Assembly (NCBI GenBank): GCA_018304465.1
Contig: JAGVWC010000009.1
Location: 62,001 to 126,000 of the forward strand
Length of the DNA stretch: 64,000 bases
Source: Candidatus Iainarchaeum sp.
Lineage (GTDB): Archaea; Iainarchaeota; Iainarchaeia; Iainarchaeales; JAGVWC01
Direction: 5' to 3'
This document shows positions 47,055 through 57,172 of this stretch, piece by piece (positions within the stretch are counted from its first letter, which is position 1; every line of letters starts with the position of its first letter). The notes beneath the pieces are model-generated. The model made no database searches. It was given only the letters and a program-made list of their open reading frames with translations, and had not been told where the DNA came from. A program made the translations under genes and the position numbers.

Positions 47055-47881
47055 GGCGTCGCGTGTTTTTCGAATATCTTGTTGGTTTGCGCGCAAGCGC
47101 TCGCGGGAAAATCCGGCACGTCGGCTTCGCAGCAGCGAAGCGGTCCGAACACGTCGTTTGGGGATCCGGCTTGGTCCGGAAAGCTGGCGCTGGGCCACAC
47201 GATCAGATCCGCCTGGACGTTGCGGTATTTCAGGTCGCTTCCGGCTTGCGAAACGAGTAATTGGGAGCGGCCGCTGGTTTTGGATTTGTTCGAGATCGCG
47301 AACAACAAATTGTCCACGTCCGAAATGCTTTGCGGCCGGCAGAAAAAAAACGTGTGCCCCTGGTTTTCCACGATGACGTATCTTGGATCGGAGGCGTATC
47401 GGGGATCGGGATCATGCGTCACCGTGTACGTGCTTTTGTAGAATAAAAAAAACGGAAAGCTGTCCAGCGTGCTCGAACCGGTGGATGCGAGTTGTTCGGG
47501 CGGAATGTAAAAGTAAAACAGGTAGTCGTAGGCGGGCGCAAGCGGGATCATGGCGTTTTGAATGTTGTCGCGAAGCGCGTATGCGGTGCGGGAAAACGAT
47601 TCGTCGTCAAAATAATCTTCCTTGAGTCCGGCAAGCAAAAAATCGTTTTCTTTGGGGTTCGGATTGGTCATGTCGCGCGGAATCGTCGTGTAGAGAATGG
47701 TTTTGAGGGCGCTTGACGTGAATTCCTGGAGTTCTTTTTTTTGGACGTTTCGTTCGAGGTTTTCGCCGTAGAGAACCGAAAACGAGAACAAAAACGCGGA
47801 CAGCGTCGTTGCGATTATGAGAAAGTACATGGCGTCCGTGATCGCGGCTTGTCCTCGCTGTGAAAGCGGAATCAGCGCCAA
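47051..47881 (-). CDS. Type IV pilin-like protein 7 (last in the filament locus)
   Basis: A 276-residue protein with a class III-like N-terminus: SQRGQAAITDAMYF followed by a hydrophobic helix (LIIATTLSAFLFSFSVLY). The GQ before a polar-then-hydrophobic stretch resembles archaeal pilin leaders cut by the prepilin peptidase. The C-terminal region is large, with CRP and CC pairs (RCCEADVPDFPASACAQ), so it may be a capping or minor subunit. It overlaps the upstream pilin-like gene by 10 bases. Confidence 0.7.
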   Translation of the reverse strand: MALIPLSQRGQAAITDAMYFLIIATTLSAFLFSFSVLYGENLERNVQKKELQEFTSSALKTILYTTIPRDMTNPNPKENDFLLAGLKEDYFDDESFSRTAYALRDNIQNAMIPLAPAYDYLFYFYIPPEQLASTGSSTLDSFPFFLFYKSTYTVTHDPDPRYASDPRYVIVENQGHTFFFCRPQSISDVDNLLFAISNKSKTSGRSQLLVSQAGSDLKYRNVQADLIVWPSASFPDQAGSPNDVFGPLRCCEADVPDFPASACAQTNKIFEKHATP

Positions 47882-48381
47882 ACCGTCACCACCAGCATTC
47901 CGGTTTTGACGTCGCCGTCAAGGTTGACGGCCACGGGATACATGACGTTTTCGGGTTGTTGCGCCGCGAGATTGGTGAAAAACAAGGACTGGTCCGAGTT
48001 TTCGCAGAGAAATGGTTGTCCCTCAAATTCGATCATTTCCGCGACGTCTTCCGGTTCGCTGTCTTCGAATAGTTTGATGCGTTTGTAGCCGGAAGAATAA
48101 TCGCCCATGTTGTAAATCGCGGCGCGGAACTTGAAACTCGTGATGTTTAATGTTCTGCAGGCGGTTTCGAATTGGTCGTAATCATTGATGAGGCTGTCGC
48201 CTTTGAGGGTGGAACCGATTTTTAATTTGAGGAGTTTTTGATCGAATTTTTCCTGTCTTAAGTCGAATTGATTAAAGGTAAATCCCAGCGAAGCGAAAAA
48301 AACGAGTAACGCGAACGTGAGCGGGATCAAGGACGGCAAGTCGTCTCCGATGGACCCGAGGTACCCTTTTTTGTTCAGCAA
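47872..48381 (-). CDS. Type IV pilin-like protein 6
   Basis: About 169 residues. The true start is likely the TTG at 48381, which overlaps the previous stop (TTGCTGA); the ORF track's longer start lies in the upstream gene. The N-terminus LNKKGYLGSIGDDLPSLIPLTFALLVFFASLGFTF gives a short basic leader and a hydrophobic helix in the pilin position. The remainder has a CRTLNITSFKFR strand region and YPVAVNLDGDVKTGML. A minor pilin or assembly factor is likely. Confidence 0.65.
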   Translation of the reverse strand: MLNKKGYLGSIGDDLPSLIPLTFALLVFFASLGFTFNQFDLRQEKFDQKLLKLKIGSTLKGDSLINDYDQFETACRTLNITSFKFRAAIYNMGDYSSGYKRIKLFEDSEPEDVAEMIEFEGQPFLCENSDQSLFFTNLAAQQPENVMYPVAVNLDGDVKTGMLVVTVWR

Positions 48382-49046
48382 TTGTAAACGCCTCCGAGTC
48401 GCGTGCTTTTGATGCGGGCCACGGCGTAACCGTAATTGGTTTCGCATTGGTGGACGCGGGAACTACATGGAATCACGTACAAGTAGGTTTCGCCGTTATA
48501 GACTTCTTTGACGAGTTTGACCGCGTTTTCGGGCGGGGTCGGAGCCGCGACCGGGTTTAAGGTGACGAAAATGTTTCCAAGCGCGTCCGGCACGGGGATT
48601 TTTAACGCGGTGAGCGGATCTGTTGTTCCGGATCTGGCATCCCATTCGAATATCTGAATGTGCGCGTTCGTGACGATGCGTTGCGCGGATAGCACTTGGT
48701 TGTCTTTTTTGGTTCGGATTGAAAAAATCAGGGCGTTTGCGGGATCCGTTGAAAGGTCGGCCAGCACGTTTTCCTGGCTGTTGATCTGAAACAGGTAATA
48801 CAATTTGTTGCCTCCTTCGCTTCTTCCAAGCGTGTTGATGTACGGCGGCAATGTCAAGGTGACTTCGTGGCAGATGCTTGACGAATTAATGACGCCAAAG
48901 GCGTCTTCGGTGATCTGGGACAAGACGGTGTCGGCTTGTTGTTTTTCAAGGGATTGCGCGAGATAAAAAGCGAAGTAACTTCCGATGGCAAACAAGGCCG
49001 TGACCAAAATGAGCATGTTGAGTTTGGATAAAATGTAGTCGAGCAT
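48375..49046 (-). CDS. Filament-locus membrane-anchored protein 5 (pilin-like)
   Basis: ATG 49046 (MLDYILSKLNMLILVTALFAIG) is chosen; the ORF track's 49307 start lies inside the upstream gene, whose stop is 2 bases away. The N-terminal hydrophobic helix is followed by an extracellular beta-rich domain with four Cys (SSICHEV, CSSRVHQCET, GVYNC). It has 223 residues. It lacks an obvious GQ-type cleavage site, so it may be a minor component instead of a major pilin. It belongs to the same run of genes. Confidence 0.65.
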   Translation of the reverse strand: MLDYILSKLNMLILVTALFAIGSYFAFYLAQSLEKQQADTVLSQITEDAFGVINSSSICHEVTLTLPPYINTLGRSEGGNKLYYLFQINSQENVLADLSTDPANALIFSIRTKKDNQVLSAQRIVTNAHIQIFEWDARSGTTDPLTALKIPVPDALGNIFVTLNPVAAPTPPENAVKLVKEVYNGETYLYVIPCSSRVHQCETNYGYAVARIKSTRLGGVYNC

Positions 49047-49048
49047 GG

Positions 49049-49576
49049 TTATCGCTCCCGTACATACGCGCAGATATTGGGGAACGCGGAGTTGTTTCCG
49101 CTTTTGTTGACCAGCGTGTACGCGCCGCGCGGAATCGAATCCTTGAAATTGACGAGTTTGTATCCGTCGCGGTCCTGGCATGGAGACGACGTCAAAAATT
49201 GCGTGAGAACGGACGCGGATTCTAGGCAGATGAGTTCGCGCCAGTCCACGGCGTCGTATTCGAATAGAAGGCATTCGCGTTTGGTTCCGCCGCAGTAATA
49301 ATTGCACAGGGGTTCCGAGTTCAATACGCGTAGTTTGATGGATTCTTTTTTCTGGTCAAAACAGCCAGGTGGAAAAAAATTGAGTTGGGTGTCGGTTCCT
49401 TTGACGACTTCCTGAACCTTGCTTTTGAGTTCGCTTCCGCTGCGCTTGATTTCGGCTTTGCATTGTTCTTCCATCAGAACGTTCATGGCCGTGAACGCGA
49501 TCACGATGACGAATCCCATGATGATGACTGAAATGAGCACTTCAAATGGCGCGCTTTCTTGTCCGCGGTTTTTCAT
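49049..49576 (-). CDS. Type IV pilin-like protein 4
   Basis: ATG 49576 starts MKNRGQESAPFEVLISVIIMGFVIVIAF, a basic leader with a GQ/ES cleavage-like site and a long hydrophobic helix, matching the archaeal class III signal pattern. The 175-residue protein continues with cysteines in CNYYCGGTKRECLLF, CLES, CQDRDG and NICAY, suggesting disulphides in the pilin body. The ORF track's start at 49591 adds five residues only. Confidence 0.72.
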   Translation of the reverse strand: MKNRGQESAPFEVLISVIIMGFVIVIAFTAMNVLMEEQCKAEIKRSGSELKSKVQEVVKGTDTQLNFFPPGCFDQKKESIKLRVLNSEPLCNYYCGGTKRECLLFEYDAVDWRELICLESASVLTQFLTSSPCQDRDGYKLVNFKDSIPRGAYTLVNKSGNNSAFPNICAYVRER

Positions 49577-49603
49577 TGGATTCCCTCCCACGGGAAGTTT
49601 TTT

Positions 49604-49777
49604 TCATTGGTTTGCGGCTTTGGTGTCTTTGATGAGTTGTTGGCTTTGTTTGAACATGGGTTTGACCACGGCAATCAGCAGTAATGCGGCGATAATGAGC
49701 ACGATAAGCATGTAGAGCGATCCCCATTCGCTTTGACAGCGTTTTTCGGACAGCAATCGTTTCAAACCGGTTTCCAT
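49604..49777 (-). CDS. Small pilin-like protein 3, missed by the ORF track
   Basis: A 57-residue reading frame starting ATG 49777: a basic, Cys-containing N-terminus (METGLKRLLSEKRCQSEWGS), a hydrophobic helix (LYMLIVLIIAALLLIAVV) and a short charged tail (FKQSQQLIKDTKAANQ). It fills the gap between two pilin-like genes in the same strand and orientation. It could be a minor pilin or a small membrane assembly factor. It falls below the track's 60-residue cut-off. Confidence 0.7.
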   Translation of the reverse strand: METGLKRLLSEKRCQSEWGSLYMLIVLIIAALLLIAVVKPMFKQSQQLIKDTKAANQ

Positions 49778-49898
49778 GACTAATTAGAAGGCGTTTTGCC
49801 TATTTAATTATTACCAACGGCCTTTTGGAAAAAGACCGGCGAAAACGAAAGTATTCGCTTGGAAGCGGAAAAAAGAAAAAAGAAAGAAAAAAAGACTT

Positions 49899-50438
49899 TT
49901 AGCGTGCGATGCGAAGCGAAATAATGCATACTTCGGCGTCAGCGACCGCGCTGGAAAAGTCGCACATGTCCATTTGGAGTTTGTCGCGCATATTCAGGGT
50001 ATCGAGCGTCGCGCCGAGTTCGGTTTCTCCGTAATCGCAGATCACGTCGATGCGGGCTTGCGCGGGAGAAGATCCTTTGTATCGCAGGGCTTTTCCGTCA
50101 GTAATGAATTCAAATCCGCGGTTATTCGTGGCAAAGTCGCCTAATGTAAGGCACAAGTCGTCGGCTTGGGGTCCGCCTTTGGCGGCTGCGGCGATTCCTT
50201 TGACGTTTAACGTGGTGTCAAAGTTGAATAGTGAGGTTCGACTGGATTTGATGTTGGACGGAGCGGTATAGGCGCCTTTGAGGGTTTCGGCGGCGGCCGT
50301 GGTCGGATCTTGTCCGACATTGAAAAACTTGGCCAAATCGAGTACTCCGAATAATACGCTTAGAATGGCAATGGCGACCACAGCGGCGATCAGTAGTTGG
50401 AAAACGCTGGAGCCTTGTCCTGTTTGGTTCAAAATCAT
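49899..50438 (-). CDS. Type IV pilin-like protein 2
   Basis: A 179-residue protein. MILNQTGQGSSVFQLLIAAVVAIAILSVLFGVL is a class III-like signal (polar GQGSS followed by a hydrophobic helix). The rest is a globular domain with AAAAKGGPQADDLCLTLG and two further Cys near the C-terminus. A TATA-like box at 50485-50494 suggests its own promoter, which could set pilin expression apart from that of the motor genes. Confidence 0.75.
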   Translation of the reverse strand: MILNQTGQGSSVFQLLIAAVVAIAILSVLFGVLDLAKFFNVGQDPTTAAAETLKGAYTAPSNIKSSRTSLFNFDTTLNVKGIAAAAKGGPQADDLCLTLGDFATNNRGFEFITDGKALRYKGSSPAQARIDVICDYGETELGATLDTLNMRDKLQMDMCDFSSAVADAEVCIISLRIAR

Positions 50439-50484
50439 GATTGGTTCACCGTCCGATTAATGCTGTATTAAGAATTCGGTTCCG

Positions 50485-50494
50485 ATATATAAAA
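50485..50494 (-). promoter_or_regulatory. TATA-box-like element inside the filament locus
   Basis: TTTATATAT (minus strand) lies about 50 bases before the ATG at 50438. This gives a leader of about 25 bases and a ribosome-site-like GGTGA. Confidence 0.45.
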
Positions 50495-50518
50495 CTGATG
50501 GGAAAGAAGGAAACCGTT

Positions 50519-50959
50519 CTAATTCGGTTTTAATCCGAATCCGATGCGGCAACACGTGTTACAACCGTTTAAGCATTGGGATGCGGGAGAACACAAGTAA
50601 TACACGTTCAGTTGGGTGTTTTGTTTGATGAGGACGACGCCAGGTTGGATCGAACTGATGGATTCGGTTTCGCGGGATTCCAGTTCGATGCATTCGGGTT
50701 CGAGGCCGCGCCGGCGGGCCAGTCCAACGGAAGAAAATTGTTCTCCCGCGCGAAACAGCAATTCGGGTTCGGTAATGACTTCGTTGGTTGGGGTCTGGAA
50801 CGCGCGGTCGAGAGTTTTTTCGAAGCGTTCTTTGCTTAACAGGAATTTTTCGTTTTCAAAGTATTGGATCAGACCGATGATGATCACCAAAATCGCGAGT
50901 CCCATGACGGCGGCGATCAAGATGTTGAAGGGTTCGAAGAATTGGCCTTTTGGATTCAT
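50519..50959 (-). CDS. Type IV pilin-like protein 1
   Basis: ATG 50959 overlaps the upstream platform stop as ATGA, so the start is firm. The N-terminus MNPKGQFFEPFNILIAAVMGLAILVIIIGLI has a KGQ cleavage-like site and hydrophobic helix. The 146-residue protein ends with a cysteine cluster (CSPASQCLNGCNTCCRIG) that may form a disulphide knot or bind metal. The ORF track's earlier start (51013) lies inside the platform gene. Confidence 0.75.
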   Translation of the reverse strand: MNPKGQFFEPFNILIAAVMGLAILVIIIGLIQYFENEKFLLSKERFEKTLDRAFQTPTNEVITEPELLFRAGEQFSSVGLARRRGLEPECIELESRETESISSIQPGVVLIKQNTQLNVYYLCSPASQCLNGCNTCCRIGFGLKPN

Positions 50960-53325
50960 GAGCCCAGCGCTCCCACAACAGAGTTCGAGATAAGCACGCT
51001 GACGATAAAACAAAGAATCGCGATCGGAAGGGATTGCGCAAGATTGATCTTGAACAACACGTCGTTGTCTTCCTCGATCTTGGTGTTGTAGTAAGTCATG
51101 ATGATGACGAGTTCGATTACGTAAATGGCGACGATGAGAACGAATTGGACCGGCGTGACCATGGTTTGGAATACTTCCGGGTTTTGTCCCAGCAGCCCGG
51201 TTCCGACGTTGGATAAGTCGGGCAATCCCGGCACCGAAACAGAACTTGACGTCGTGACCGAAGAACTTCCTTGACTTGAAACGATTTGCGATAACGTAAC
51301 CATGACGACTTTTTGTAGCGACGTCGTGATTCCCAATACGATCGGAGCGATGAAAATCACCATGGTGTGCATCATGGACGTGACTTCGCGAACCAGGGCG
51401 GACAGCATGCGCGTGACTTTTTCCTGGTTGGTGAGTTGCATGGAAAGCGACATCAGGGTGCGCGCGGATACATTGACGCCAAGATTCACGGAATCCACGA
51501 GGAGTTTCATCGAGCTTTTGATGATGGCTGATGGAATGTTGCGCAGCGCGCCGAAGGTTTTGTCGAACACGGCGGCCTCAAGCGGCATTCCAAGCAGTGA
51601 AATGTTTTCCACTATTTTTCCGTAAATGCGTTCTGCCACGATGGTTTTGGGCAAAAATTCACGGGTGTGCTGCAGGGCTTCTTCGACGGGTTTGTTTTCG
51701 CCCATGCGTGACGCGAGAATGTAAAGACTGTCGCGGAATTCGGTTTCCATTTGCATGGTTTCAAGCTGCACTTTTCGTTTTCCCTGGTTCGAAAAAAACA
51801 AGTAAAAATACGCGAGCAATCCAAACGTCAATAGTCCTCCGAAAACGAGTTTGTACGGCGTGATGTCGTGAGTTCCCTGGGCAAAGTAGCGTTGTCGCTC
51901 CAAGGCAATGCGGTCCCTGCGCTGGACGGGATCCGTGATTTCGGTAGATAATTCTTTGTCGAGCAATCCGTCGGGTTCGAAATAATTCGTGGGTTTGTTG
52001 TCTTCCAACAGCACTTTTTCGGAGTTCGGATCGGGTGGAATCAGGTACGTGGATTGTCCGAGTTCGTCTTTTCCGTAGGGGACTCCGAATTGGGATAATC
52101 CCAAGGTGATTCCGCCGCACACCAAAAGGATCACGAGCAATCCGAGTCGAAGATCGACCATCATGTTTCCGATTTGCGCCTTGTTTTTGGGCGGAAGACC
52201 CGGATGGTTGTCCGGAACAACGGGCGGTTCGTAGGTGGGGGGACGGGTCAAGACGACGTTTCGCGCGAAAATGAACGCGCCAAGCGGAATCAAGATATTG
52301 TAGACCAGGATCAGGATTTCGGGGCGCGCCAAGGGCGCGCCGGAAAAAACGCTTCCGATGGGAAGAATGATAATCAGGATCAACGGCAAAAGCACGCCGA
52401 GATAAAACAGCATGATGGAGGGCTGTGAGAGCTGGCGTGCGTAATTTTCCATTTTGTTCTTGATGGAATCAAGCATTTCCGTGACGGTCCGATCGAGTAA
52501 CAGGTAGCGTTTGGATTCGGATTCTTCGAGCACGGACGCGCGGATCATCATGAGCGATCGTTTGAATTCGTCCGAGAATTTTCCCCAGCGGTACGCCATG
52601 GCGTCGAGTCCTTCGGAAAGCGTGTTGTAAAAACCCAGTTGGACTTCCCAGATCATTTTTCGCAGATCGTCCGCGATTTTTCCGCGGCCGTGTTCGGCGG
52701 CGAATTCGATCGCACGCTCGAGATTGGGAACGAGTTTCATGGACATCGTCATGTAACCCACGATTTCGGGTACGTACGTGAGCGCGCGGATTTGTTCTTC
52801 GCGTGCTTTTTCAAGCGGATAGCGTTGCACGTAATTGATCAAAAACAAGGCGATCAGCAACAAGGGCATGAAAATGTACACCAACGCCATTTCCATGCTT
52901 TTCGTAAAACCAATCACGAGCTGGAGCACCGAAATCGTGCCGCAGACCTGGATTCCTTCATCGTCGAATTTGGAGCAGTCGGGAATCAGCGGCACCGCAG
53001 CCAGGAGCAACCCGATCAATAGCGCGATTCCCACCCCGGCAAACATCGTGAACGAAACCGCGGATCCGAATTCGGATGCTTTCAGATCCCATCCCAAAAA
53101 ATCGATGGCTTCACGGTGTTCTTCGGAGTACCGGGCTTTCATGTCCGGTCGGATGAATTGTGTGGTCCATTTGCAGAATTTGACAAAGGCGGGCACCGTG
53201 GATTTGACGAGTTTTGTTTCGCCTTTTTCGAAATCGCGGTCTTCGGTGCGGATGCTTTTGTAGATTTCTCCCGGCGACGCATTGGGTTCGTAAAACGGCC
53301 GTTTATTGGCGTCAGACGGCGGCAT
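50956..53325 (-). CDS. FlaJ/TadC-like platform with two fused F domains
   Basis: A 789-residue integral membrane protein. Two F domains are fused. The first has LTYVPEIVGYMTMSMKLVPNLERAI and RASVLEESESKRY around residues 190-280; the second has SLYILASRMGENKPVEEALQ and KSSMKLLVDSVNLGV around 530-640. Each is flanked by membrane helices, with pairs near residues 95-165, 300-350, 395-410, 490-510 and 665-790. It anchors the ATPase to the membrane and moves pilins. The first filament set encodes the two halves as separate genes. The start overlaps the ATPase stop by 14 bases. Confidence 0.85.
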   Translation of the reverse strand: MPPSDANKRPFYEPNASPGEIYKSIRTEDRDFEKGETKLVKSTVPAFVKFCKWTTQFIRPDMKARYSEEHREAIDFLGWDLKASEFGSAVSFTMFAGVGIALLIGLLLAAVPLIPDCSKFDDEGIQVCGTISVLQLVIGFTKSMEMALVYIFMPLLLIALFLINYVQRYPLEKAREEQIRALTYVPEIVGYMTMSMKLVPNLERAIEFAAEHGRGKIADDLRKMIWEVQLGFYNTLSEGLDAMAYRWGKFSDEFKRSLMMIRASVLEESESKRYLLLDRTVTEMLDSIKNKMENYARQLSQPSIMLFYLGVLLPLILIIILPIGSVFSGAPLARPEILILVYNILIPLGAFIFARNVVLTRPPTYEPPVVPDNHPGLPPKNKAQIGNMMVDLRLGLLVILLVCGGITLGLSQFGVPYGKDELGQSTYLIPPDPNSEKVLLEDNKPTNYFEPDGLLDKELSTEITDPVQRRDRIALERQRYFAQGTHDITPYKLVFGGLLTFGLLAYFYLFFSNQGKRKVQLETMQMETEFRDSLYILASRMGENKPVEEALQHTREFLPKTIVAERIYGKIVENISLLGMPLEAAVFDKTFGALRNIPSAIIKSSMKLLVDSVNLGVNVSARTLMSLSMQLTNQEKVTRMLSALVREVTSMMHTMVIFIAPIVLGITTSLQKVVMVTLSQIVSSQGSSSVTTSSSVSVPGLPDLSNVGTGLLGQNPEVFQTMVTPVQFVLIVAIYVIELVIIMTYYNTKIEEDNDVLFKINLAQSLPIAILCFIVSVLISNSVVGALGS

Positions 53326-56300
53326 GGCTTACCCGTTCTTGGCTGGTTTTTTTCTTTTCAAGCAGGCGTTTTAAGAGTTTGTTTTGCACCCATTCTTTCC
53401 AGTCCACCAGCAACTGGTCGTAATCGACTTTTTTTCCGGCGGACAACTGGTCTTCGCGCAGAATCATGTATTTGTTGTTGGTTTGACAGTAGTTTTCGGC
53501 TTCGATGAGTTCGGGTATCTCGTACTTGTTTTTCAGGTCCACCAAAAATGCTTTGCTCGCGGCGTTGGTTTTGATCGCTTTCCAGATTTCCTCGATCGTC
53601 ATTCCCGAAGTGGATTGAATGCGCTCGAACAGGTCCGAGTCCTTGAGATTGTCTTCGAGCAAATCAATGCGGTCGTCTTTGGCATGGTATCTCATGATAT
53701 CCAGTAGTCCGCCTTCTTTGTCCGGGTCCGTGGTCCAGTGTTTTTTGACTTCCGTGACTTGGACGAGGCGACGATGGCGTTTTAAGGATCCGCGAAAACG
53801 AATCGGTCGGCAGACCACGACCAGATCGGTTGCTTTGAAAGACGTGGTGGGAACCGCAAGATCGTTGACGACGCGGTCCCAAACCGAGTACGCGGAATCG
53901 CCGTGAATGGTTCCAAGTACGATGTTTCCCGCGGCGCCAACCCGCATGGCTTCGTACAATACTTTGGCTTCGGTGGAACGCACTTCTCCGAGCACCAGTG
54001 CCGAGTCGCCTAATCGCAGCGCGGTTCGAAGGGATTCTTCGGGCCCGACTTCGGATTCGGTTTTTGAAACCGAGATCGGCGAGCGGGTTTTGAGCCGTTG
54101 AATATTGAAGCCCACGTTTTTCATGTATTCCGCAGGAATTTCGAGCGTGTTATGGGCGATAATGTTTTCACAAATAAAATTTTCGCATCCCGGGACCGAG
54201 AAATCGTACACGAATCGTTCGTTGGTTTCAAGCTTTTGAATTGCGGTTACTTCGTCCCACAAAATCTCGGATTCGACGAGTGTATTCAAACGATCAATCA
54301 AAACAGTCTGGGTTTTGGCGGTTGAAAGCATTTGCGATAGTTTTCGGCGCCCAATATTGTTTCCGCGGGTAATGTAATCACTATAACTGAACTTGTCGAT
54401 GAGGCGGGCCAAGGTTTTTTTGATCGGGATTCCAAGCGGAATCGTATCGGTGGCGTCTTGAGTGGGGCGATGGGTACAAAGGAGTTCCAAACGCGTTGTT
54501 TTTTCAATCTGGAGAAAACCGATTTTTTCTTTGAAACGATCGAAGTTTTGCCGGCCCCCGATATATAAACGGTACGTTTTGTCCCTTTCCTTTTGGGGAC
54601 CGACTCTTGCGGTAATTCCAAAATGCAACAATAGGGTCTGAAGCTGATCGATCATTTGCTTTGAGCAAAGACTGATTCCGAGTTCTTTTTGCGAAGCGTT
54701 GCCGTCTCCGCTGAAAAGTCCTTTGAGAAAATGACCTTTTTGGCGTTGGTCTAAATTAAACGCCCAATTTGGAATTTGCTTGGTATATGCATTCCCTTTC
54801 AGATGCAATATGTTTTTGAAAAACCAGACAAGGTTCGTGTTCGAGATGACGGTCGAGAACTGGTCGTGATGAATTCGCGGAACAAGCCCGAGTTTATCGC
54901 AGATGTCTTTAAGCAGTTTTTTGCTGGGGGCATCCCCGACCGAAACAATGATTGCGAAGCGAGAATCGTAGCATCCGTCCGCAAGCCATAATCCCGCTAG
55001 TTCGATCCAATCGTTGGACAATGGGATCGTTAGCGGAAGCGGGCGGGATTTTTGATCGATTTTGAATTTAAGATTGGTAGTGTCCAGCGAAACTTTGTTT
55101 CGAAGTTGTTCATAGATCTTGACGGGCAGTATTCCCTTGCGTTTCCATACGGAAGAAGAATTTTTTTTGTAACCGTTTTCTCTGGCGGCTTGCTTGACCA
55201 ATTTCCAGTTTTGTGCAATCCACGGTTTGATTTCGCTTCCGAGGAGAAAGCCCTTTTTGGAAGCAACCAAAGTATCCAGCACGGGGAACGCGCAAATCAA
55301 TGAAGGATCGTTCGGCAGAGTGCTTGGAACGGCGATTCGTTTTCCGACAGTTAGATCGGATGTCTTGATGGGAACAATTTGCGCGTTTTGGTCTAACGCG
55401 AAAAGAGAATGATCGCAAGTAACTTTGAGTGTTCGGCCGCTTTTTGTCCGAACCTCAAGAATGTCTTTGGTGACAGCATGCCGGGAAAATTGGGATACCC
55501 GTGCAAGAACAATTTTTCCGGATTTATCCATCGAATACACATGAATGTCTTCCGGATTGGAATCGAGCAGGTCGCGCCCATGAATATCGATTGACCCGAA
55601 TTTTGAAATCTGTTCGTCGATGAGAGCTCCAACGGTTGTGAATTCAAATGATTCCTTTCGTTTCACTTGAATTTTTGAATCACCGGTGACGCTGTCTTCC
55701 TGTAGAATAATCCGCGTGTTCTGAAGAATTTCCAGCATCAGGGCCTGGAGCAGCGATGTTTTTCCCGCGCCGCGCGAACCCGTAACAAGCGTGGTGGCTT
55801 GCTGGTCGATGAAAAACGAGAGTAGTCCCGCCGAAAGCGGCGTCATGAAATGATTGTCAATGAACTGGGGCAGTGTCCAAGGCGTGACTTTGTGGAGTCG
55901 AAACGCGAACGCGATTCCGTCGGGAGAAAGCGGGGGCCCGATGACGGCGACACGGGCGTCGGAATCATCGAGATCGAAATCAAGCACGGGGTGGGCTTCG
56001 TCGAACGGACGGCCGCTCATGGCGCGGAGTTTGGAAACCATGGAATTGGCTTCGTCCGCGGTGTACACGATGTTGGTCTGGCATTGTCCGTAGTCGGAGT
56101 GCACCACGTAAATTGGTTTCATTCCGATGGGCGCGTCGACGTAAATATCGGTGAGGCGTTTGTCCTGCAATACCAGTTCGAGGATTCCGTATCCGACAGT
56201 ATAACGCGCCACGACTTCGGCGAGTTCGCGGGCTTCGTCGTTTGAAAGCGGGATTTTCATGGATTGCGCGATGTCATGAATCGTGCTTTCGTAGATGCGC

Positions 56301-57172
56301 GTGAAGTATTTGCGGCTTTTGGCAACCATGGAAAGCGATGTTTTCCCGGGTTTGTAACTGGCAACGATTTCCTTGGTTTTCGAGAGAATGAAGTATTTTT
56401 CGGGGGGCAAAGAGTATTCCGGCGGGTTCACGAAATACAATGCTTCGGTTTTGTTCGGGTGTTTGAAGATCTGGACGTTGGCGAGGCCGATGTTGTATTC
56501 GTCCAAGAGTTCGAGTTCTTCGTCGTCGCCAAACAAGAGGCGGCTTCCGATAAAAGACGGTTTGATTTCGGCTTCGAACATCGAACGGTAGATTTCGCGG
56601 CTTTCGGGGACTTTTTGGAGTTTTTGCAAAAAGTCTTTGGCGCGTCCGATGAGTTCGGTGGATTCGAAGCGTTTCTTGATTTCGGTCAGTGTCGCGAGGT
56701 AAACCGCGTTGCATTCGCGAACCTTGTCTCCAAGACCGCTTAATTTTTCCTGTTCGGTTCGGATTTCATGCAGACACGTTAAGTATGCCATTACAGGGTC
56801 GTACGCGAGCAAATCGTGCGTGACGCGCACGATCGCGTCGTGGCGCGTGGCGAAGAATTTTTCGCATTCGAGGTCCGGCGTTCCGAGGTGCGCGTAGCTC
56901 CACATCGCGTCGTTTTCGAATTTCCGGATCAAGGAAGAGACTTCGGTGAGCATTTTGGTTTCGTGTTCGTCGTAGACGCGTTCGTATACTTCGGCGAATA
57001 CGATCAGGTCCGCGTCAACTTCCTGGAGCACGGATAACACGTGGAACATGCACGCGCGGTCTTCGGCGAGGCTTGCGCCGTACACGCAGTTCCGGCAGTC
57101 GAAAACGAGGTGGCGTTTTCCGCCCATATCCTTGACGACATAATCGCCGACTTCAAATTGCCCGATTTTCAT
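53312..57172 (-). CDS. Archaeal TadA/FlaI-like secretion ATPase interrupted by an intein, second set
   Basis: The ORF has 1286 residues. Without the intein (residues 494-1008) the ATPase is about 771 residues. The N-terminal region has FDCRNCVYGASLAEDRAC, a conserved cysteine set of archaeal secretion ATPases. LVTGSRGAGKTSLLQAL is Walker A, and the Asp box RIILQED-TLEIP is split by the intein. Downstream are LVLGEVRS (Walker B) and GTIHGDSAYSVWDRVVNDL (His box). Splicing must occur to rebuild the catalytic region. A TATA box at 57199-57204 gives a nearly leaderless start at ATG 57172. Confidence 0.9.
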   Translation of the reverse strand: MKIGQFEVGDYVVKDMGGKRHLVFDCRNCVYGASLAEDRACMFHVLSVLQEVDADLIVFAEVYERVYDEHETKMLTEVSSLIRKFENDAMWSYAHLGTPDLECEKFFATRHDAIVRVTHDLLAYDPVMAYLTCLHEIRTEQEKLSGLGDKVRECNAVYLATLTEIKKRFESTELIGRAKDFLQKLQKVPESREIYRSMFEAEIKPSFIGSRLLFGDDEELELLDEYNIGLANVQIFKHPNKTEALYFVNPPEYSLPPEKYFILSKTKEIVASYKPGKTSLSMVAKSRKYFTRIYESTIHDIAQSMKIPLSNDEARELAEVVARYTVGYGILELVLQDKRLTDIYVDAPIGMKPIYVVHSDYGQCQTNIVYTADEANSMVSKLRAMSGRPFDEAHPVLDFDLDDSDARVAVIGPPLSPDGIAFAFRLHKVTPWTLPQFIDNHFMTPLSAGLLSFFIDQQATTLVTGSRGAGKTSLLQALMLEILQNTRIILQEDSVTGDSKIQVKRKESFEFTTVGALIDEQISKFGSIDIHGRDLLDSNPEDIHVYSMDKSGKIVLARVSQFSRHAVTKDILEVRTKSGRTLKVTCDHSLFALDQNAQIVPIKTSDLTVGKRIAVPSTLPNDPSLICAFPVLDTLVASKKGFLLGSEIKPWIAQNWKLVKQAARENGYKKNSSSVWKRKGILPVKIYEQLRNKVSLDTTNLKFKIDQKSRPLPLTIPLSNDWIELAGLWLADGCYDSRFAIIVSVGDAPSKKLLKDICDKLGLVPRIHHDQFSTVISNTNLVWFFKNILHLKGNAYTKQIPNWAFNLDQRQKGHFLKGLFSGDGNASQKELGISLCSKQMIDQLQTLLLHFGITARVGPQKERDKTYRLYIGGRQNFDRFKEKIGFLQIEKTTRLELLCTHRPTQDATDTIPLGIPIKKTLARLIDKFSYSDYITRGNNIGRRKLSQMLSTAKTQTVLIDRLNTLVESEILWDEVTAIQKLETNERFVYDFSVPGCENFICENIIAHNTLEIPAEYMKNVGFNIQRLKTRSPISVSKTESEVGPEESLRTALRLGDSALVLGEVRSTEAKVLYEAMRVGAAGNIVLGTIHGDSAYSVWDRVVNDLAVPTTSFKATDLVVVCRPIRFRGSLKRHRRLVQVTEVKKHWTTDPDKEGGLLDIMRYHAKDDRIDLLEDNLKDSDLFERIQSTSGMTIEEIWKAIKTNAASKAFLVDLKNKYEIPELIEAENYCQTNNKYMILREDQLSAGKKVDYDQLLVDWKEWVQNKLLKRLLEKKKTSQERVSHAAV
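54149..55693 (-). mobile_element. Intein with LAGLIDADG endonuclease in the secretion ATPase
   Basis: A 515-residue intein between ...LQED and TLEIP. Ser1 begins SVTGDSKIQVK (block A). The block B signature is TCDHSLFALD. LAGLIDADG-type helices are ELAGLWLADGCYDS and FLKGLFSGDGNAS. Block F is VYDFSVPGCENFICENIIAHN, with the terminal Asn and the +1 Thr as extein nucleophile. Both splice-site residues and both endonuclease motifs look intact, so splicing should work. The insertion point is the conserved catalytic acidic box, a common homing site in essential ATPases. Confidence 0.92.

Follow-up and report, generated by a model that had tools for sequence, protein, structure and literature searches.

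The secretion ATPase gene of a probable pilus-type locus in Candidatus Iainarchaeum sp. is interrupted by a 515-aa class 1 mobile intein with a LAGLIDADG homing endonuclease, which occupies positions 54149–55693 on the minus strand of the window (the whole stretch of 64,000 nucleotides that was analysed). We hold this explanation with high confidence as a whole, that is, with splicing, homing and horizontal acquisition included. The intein lies at ED^T in the ASP box of the ATPase, where the caret marks the insertion point.

Identification and anatomy of the intein

The insert corresponds exactly to codons 494–1008 of a 1286-aa open reading frame at 53312–57172 (minus strand, as are all the features described below). 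Its N-terminal junction reads RIILQED/SVTGDSK and its C-terminal junction ENIIAHN/TLEIPAEY, and deletion of the insert in silico gives RIILQED-TLEIPAEY, the same as the uninterrupted QEDTLEIP-type sequence found in 29 orthologues. Within the insert, Pfam recognises Intein_splicing (E = 1e-22) and LAGLIDADG_3 (E = 2.7e-17), with T2SSE in the flanks, and NCBIfam intein_Nterm matches residues 495–591. The class 1 residues are all present, namely Ser1, the block B TxxH motif T92-C-D-H95 (TCDH, 55409–55420), Asp497 of block F (VYD), His514-Asn515 at the C-terminus (block G IIAHN, 54149–54163) and Thr+1. The two endonuclease motifs, GLWLADG (54974–54994) and GLFSGDG (54701–54721), retain their acidic residues D239 and D330, respectively, and the frame is open and free of stop codons.

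An AlphaFold model of the insert, built from 32 related inteins, has a pLDDT of 93.7 and a pTM of 0.92. Its best match in the PDB is PI-PkoII (2cw7, E = 3e-32, TM 0.77), followed by the TliVMA intein and PI-PfuI; the predicted model has the HINT fold expected of a class 1 intein, and its top PDB matches are all inteins. An earlier note, made from the letters alone, had proposed a full-length intein with these same limits and with Ser1, TCDH, two LAGLIDADG helices and HN/T intact. The exact junctions, the Pfam and NCBIfam matches and the intein-free orthologues bear out the first point, and every one of the residues it listed is indeed present. That the insert is instead an ordinary domain of the ATPase has a virtually nil probability and is refuted by its absence from the 29 orthologues together with the intein profile and fold matches.

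The host ATPase and the insertion site

The precursor gene encodes a TadA/GspE/FlaI-type secretion (pilus) ATPase of the T2SSE family, 1286 aa long before and 771 aa long after splicing, whose closest solved relatives are 2oap, CpaF and FlaI. The C-terminal half of the spliced protein aligns with afGspE (2oap), full-length CpaF (9e24) and FlaI, with the Walker A motif, ASP box, Walker B motif and HIS box in order. The junctions and the comparison with orthologues delimit an N-extein (residues 1–493, 55694–57172) and a C-extein (53312–54148 including the stop codon), the latter starting with Thr+1, which is T494 of the spliced protein. Alignment with orthologues and CpaF places the Walker A motif GSRGAGKT in the N-extein (55757–55780; K471 is equivalent to CpaF K287). 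The N-extein ends with the first acidic pair of the ASP box, E492-D493 (55694–55699), aligned to E308-D309 of CpaF. The C-extein opens with the second half of the box, T494-L495-E496 (54140–54148), and further on contains the Walker B region LGEVRS with the catalytic Glu (53975–53992) and the HIS box GTIHGDS (53894–53914), both located by alignment with orthologues and solved relatives. E492, D493, T494 and E496 are invariant in the 17 orthologues aligned.

The insertion point in the spliced protein, D493/T494, is thus 22 residues past the Walker A lysine K471. The aligned counterpart of E496, E312 of CpaF, is an ASP-box residue near Mg2+ in the cryo-EM structure (PMC11300603), and the ASP-box Glu of PilB is likewise a Mg2+ ligand (PMC5424180). 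The earlier note had placed the insertion at the catalytic acidic box; it does fall within the ASP box, but three residues before the Mg2+-binding Glu rather than at the hydrolytic Walker B glutamate. The intein leaves Walker A and the ED pair in the N-extein and puts the Mg2+-binding E496, the Walker B Glu and the HIS box in the C-extein. Because the ASP box is split and the Mg2+-binding Glu is separated from the N-extein motifs, it is strongly implied that the unspliced ATPase would be unable to hydrolyse ATP and that splicing would be required before activity.

By the established class 1 mechanism, self-excision would proceed from an ester at Ser1 through transesterification to Thr+1 and cyclisation of Asn515 to the joining of D493 to T494. 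Excision would rebuild the ASP box, so that the motor would become functional only once spliced.

Residues 1–300 of the ATPase include an early Cys-rich stretch (CRNCVY...CMFH), a possible metal site whose C26, C29, C41 and H44 do not vary among 17 orthologues. The window's own genome also encodes paralogous ATPases that have no inteins.

The neighbouring genes agree with this assignment of the host. The ATPase gene is directly upstream of a gene for a TadC-like membrane platform protein (50956–53325; Pfam T2SSF, E = 3e-6), which overlaps the stop-codon end of the ATPase gene by 14 bases, and a TadC/GspF gene thus adjoins the motor. A run of small open reading frames follows at 47872–51013. 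A Pfam search of these gave no match; when their translations were read by eye, several had a pilin-like hydrophobic N-terminus (GQxxxFxxLI...), and they are probably pilins or minor pilins. Judged from its genes, this is probably a locus for an archaeal type IV filament, with pilus assembly as its predicted function.

Empty alleles and horizontal acquisition

A close orthologue of the ATPase (55–70% identity) is found in about 42 of 53 genomes of the same order. In 29 of these orthologues the site was read directly and is uninterrupted (QEDTLE-type), with approximately 60–67% identity across it; the intein-free alleles that the earlier note suggested looking for in relatives are therefore present as exact empty sites. 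The ASP-box intein occurs in the orthologues of only six of the 75 genomes of the order (G000, which is the window genome, G001, G022, G023, G024 and G065). Filled and empty alleles can be closely related: within genus g35, G065 is filled and G045 is empty, with flanking DNA that is 87% identical.

In the ATPase tree, monophyly of the intein bearers is rejected (AU p = 5.7e-42), and the pattern of presence and absence needs six changes. The host and intein trees also disagree with each other. The host tree pairs the window ATPase with that of G001 (L071), whereas the intein tree pairs the window intein (L001) with that of G065 (L070). The host data reject the intein-tree grouping (p = 0.005), and the intein data reject the host-tree grouping only marginally (p = 0.048). 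Furthermore, the intein has a GC content of 0.450 and a GC3 of 0.487, compared with 0.532 and 0.669 for one extein and 0.515 and 0.616 for the other. Taken together, the empty alleles, the patchiness, the disagreement between the host and intein trees and the differing GC content support horizontal acquisition of the intein by the window ATPase gene.

In homing, the ED^T codons of an intein-free allele would be cleaved by the endonuclease, and the element would then be copied in during repair. Co-conversion of the flanks around the filled allele is not claimed here: in L070/L010, the closest filled/empty pair, the similarity of the blocks adjacent to the site (0.70–0.77) is below that of the others (0.80–0.97), but the pair L074/L016 has no clear identity trend toward the site.

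The ASP-box intein family across archaea

A scan of one genome per species, with search patterns in intein blocks B and F, gave 79 loci, 72 of which parse as ED/S[VI]...HN/TxE[IL]. After addition of the order's own inteins and removal of duplicates, 74 distinct inteins at ED^T were obtained, and their hosts fall into four paralogous ATPase groups. The record titles name Diapherotrites/Iainarchaeum, Micrarchaeota, Aenigmatarchaeota, Woesearchaeota, Pacearchaeota, Nanoarchaeota, Nanohalarchaeota (also Nanosalinarum), Borrarchaeum and unplaced archaea; ED^T inteins are therefore present in many DPANN lineages and in at least one Asgard genome. They are all 466–544 aa long, with no mini-intein among them, and a recognisable LAGLIDADG motif is missing in two or three of the collected copies (L139 and L142; second motif in L145 and L148).

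Altogether 81 relatives could be parsed, S[VI] being demanded after ED, and seven loci remained unparsed. S1, TxxH, HN and T+1 are kept in all 81, although the patterns favour intact copies. Degenerate or mutated ASP-box copies were sought among the relatives and none was found in the parsed loci, in a scan that is biased to blocks B and F and under-represents decayed copies. Relatives with mutated splice residues, or a normal domain at this position, were what the earlier note had named as evidence against its reading; with 81 of 81 relatives intact and 29 orthologues free of the insert, neither is observed. In the linker between blocks F and G there is also a cysteine at intein position 508 (54170–54172; motif ENFxC), conserved in 65 of the 81 ASP-box inteins even though Ser and Thr serve as the splice nucleophiles.

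The endonuclease region has a dN/dS of 0.10–0.25 in close pairs, about the same as that of the splicing domain, which supports the view that the endonuclease is maintained under selection. A relic in which splicing or the endonuclease is dead is therefore a highly improbable reading of the window intein. The window intein and its relatives retain the splicing residues and the acidic residue of each LAGLIDADG motif, the frame has no stops, related copies have a dN/dS far below 1 in the splicing domain as well as in the endonuclease, and a dead intein would abolish the ATPase. The window intein is, from its sequence, probably active in splicing.

Clustering on the intein tree follows the ATPase groups: the group of the window intein (50 rows) forms one side of a starred branch, and the four groups require four changes against the least possible three. 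Since the clusters largely match the four ATPase groups, transfer of the intein between paralogue groups appears to be rare or old.

Selfish element or host switch

What, then, maintains the intein in a pilus motor? Its specific target would be the ASP-box codons in the secretion/pilus ATPases of archaea, and it could persist there because these codons are nearly immutable and an imprecise loss would kill the motor. We favour reading the ASP-box intein as a selfish element, any benefit to the host being hypothetical.

It could be argued instead that the intein is a post-translational switch, in which conditional splicing, responsive to redox state, temperature or contact with a partner, gates pilus assembly. 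The split ASP box implies that splicing would have to precede activity, the conservation of the linker Cys508 in 65 of 81 relatives is unexplained, and other inteins are known to splice conditionally (PMC6195587). Nevertheless, the patchy distribution, with most orthologues intein-free, indicates that hosts do not need the intein; its nucleophiles, Ser1 and Thr+1, are not redox-sensitive Cys; and the purifying selection on the endonuclease is as expected for a homing parasite. We therefore regard a switch as quite unlikely, and the coupling of pilus function to splicing conditions that the earlier note had raised finds no support in these data. The more specific suggestion, that conditional splicing of the ASP-box intein licenses filament assembly in small, often host-associated archaea, with Cys508 as a possible redox handle, seems to us very unlikely. 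Redox switching through the splice nucleophiles is ruled out, these being Ser and Thr. The selfish element thus remains the preferred reading.

Other insertion sites and other inteins of the genome

Four intein sites occur in the secretion ATPases of this order: GK^T (site A, after the Walker A lysine), ED^T, GEVRS^T (site C) and GHDG^ (site D). A site A intein is present in G001, in tandem with the ASP-box intein and 22 residues from it, and the locus L039 (2097–5318) contains two full-length inteins in one ATPase, at GK^T and ED^T with this same spacing. A Nanohalarchaeota ATPase (L099) also combines site A and ASP-box inteins, while a paralogue in the window's own genome (L187) has the site A intein only. 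Site C is occupied in G037. Site D is occupied by a Cys1 intein in G012 and by an Ala1...SN^C intein in G002; GHDG-ALAYDE at the start of the 2jmz chain identifies this as the KlbA site. A single secretion ATPase of G002 (L186, C1:79000–86000) combines an ASP-box class 1 intein with an intein of the class 2 type (Ala1, SN^C) at the KlbA site, the latter retaining a LAGLIDADG-like endonuclease region.

The window genome itself is rich in inteins. A census based on family searches gave about 15 inteins in 13 genes of the 1.25-Mb assembly (loci L002–L008 and L187–L192), the hosts being, by reading, Rad50, aRF1 (at GGQ^S), MCM (two), two HerA/FtsK-like ATPases, a tyrosine recombinase, a MinD/ParA-like ATPase, ribonucleotide reductase (two), SRP54, the RFC small subunit and RtcB. 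A further locus of this genome (L193, C15:201800–205600) encodes a secreted protein in which a signal-like sequence precedes a HINT-like N-terminal region, and is not an intein inside a conserved host.

Comparison with known systems

The earlier note had considered inteins to be uncommon in secretion or pilus ATPases; this is contradicted by KlbA, by the 74 ED^T inteins and by the four sites in this order. A search of open-access papers, which did not extend to InBase, preprints or most subscription journals, turned up no earlier description of the ASP-box allele or of its breadth. The ED^T intein is thus an apparently undescribed, widespread allele, new within a known kind, that of inteins in this ATPase family. 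With this allele, the KlbA site and two further sites (GK^T and GEVRS^T) in one order, the filament-assembly ATPases are among the heavily invaded intein hosts of archaea. One recent survey hardly covered the lineages concerned, its Table 1 including only two DPANN genomes (PMC10643990). The filled and empty sister alleles provide a natural set to test gene flow among DPANN lineages, and an intein at a Mg2+ site could serve in the design of splice-dependent ATPases. No view of intein biology is overturned.

Like TadA/CpaF, afGspE (2oap) and FlaI, the window extein has Walker A, ASP box, Walker B and HIS box and is adjoined by tadC. It differs from them in a long N-terminal domain (~300 aa) with no match in solved structures, and the sequences of the solved homologues (2oap, CpaF and FlaI) align without an insert at ED^T.

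The nearest precedent for the insertion is KlbA. The KlbA inteins (M. jannaschii MJ0781, PDB 2jmz/2jnq) likewise interrupt a catalytic motif of an archaeal TadA/GspE-type secretion ATPase; the M. jannaschii intein, the class 2 prototype, is in the same ATPase family, and all class 2 inteins then known were KlbA orthologues with Ala1 and a penultimate Ser (PMC4031507). Is the window intein then simply a member of this allele? The shared ATPase superfamily and the KlbA inteins in paralogues of this order (L186) would speak for it. However, KlbA inteins have Ala1, a penultimate Ser and Cys+1 at GHDG^, on the HIS-box side (PMC4031507), whereas the window intein has Ser1, His-Asn and Thr+1 at ED^T in the ASP box, and the presence of both in L186 makes them separate alleles. 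Membership in the KlbA class 2 allele is refuted by position and residues (Ala1, Ser-Asn, Cys+1 and GHDG^ are all lacking) and is, in our estimation, barely conceivable.

PI-PkoII (2cw7), TliVMA (7qss) and PI-PfuI (1dq3), the closest solved folds, share with the window intein a HINT domain into which a two-motif LAGLIDADG endonuclease is inserted, but they belong to other host proteins and other insertion sites and are only 16–18% identical to it. Haloarchaeal MCM is likewise an ATPase with several insertion sites at its ATP-binding motifs, one of them after the Walker A Lys, and with tandem inteins in one gene (PMC10643990); in the present case, in contrast, the host is a filament-assembly ATPase of DPANN archaea.
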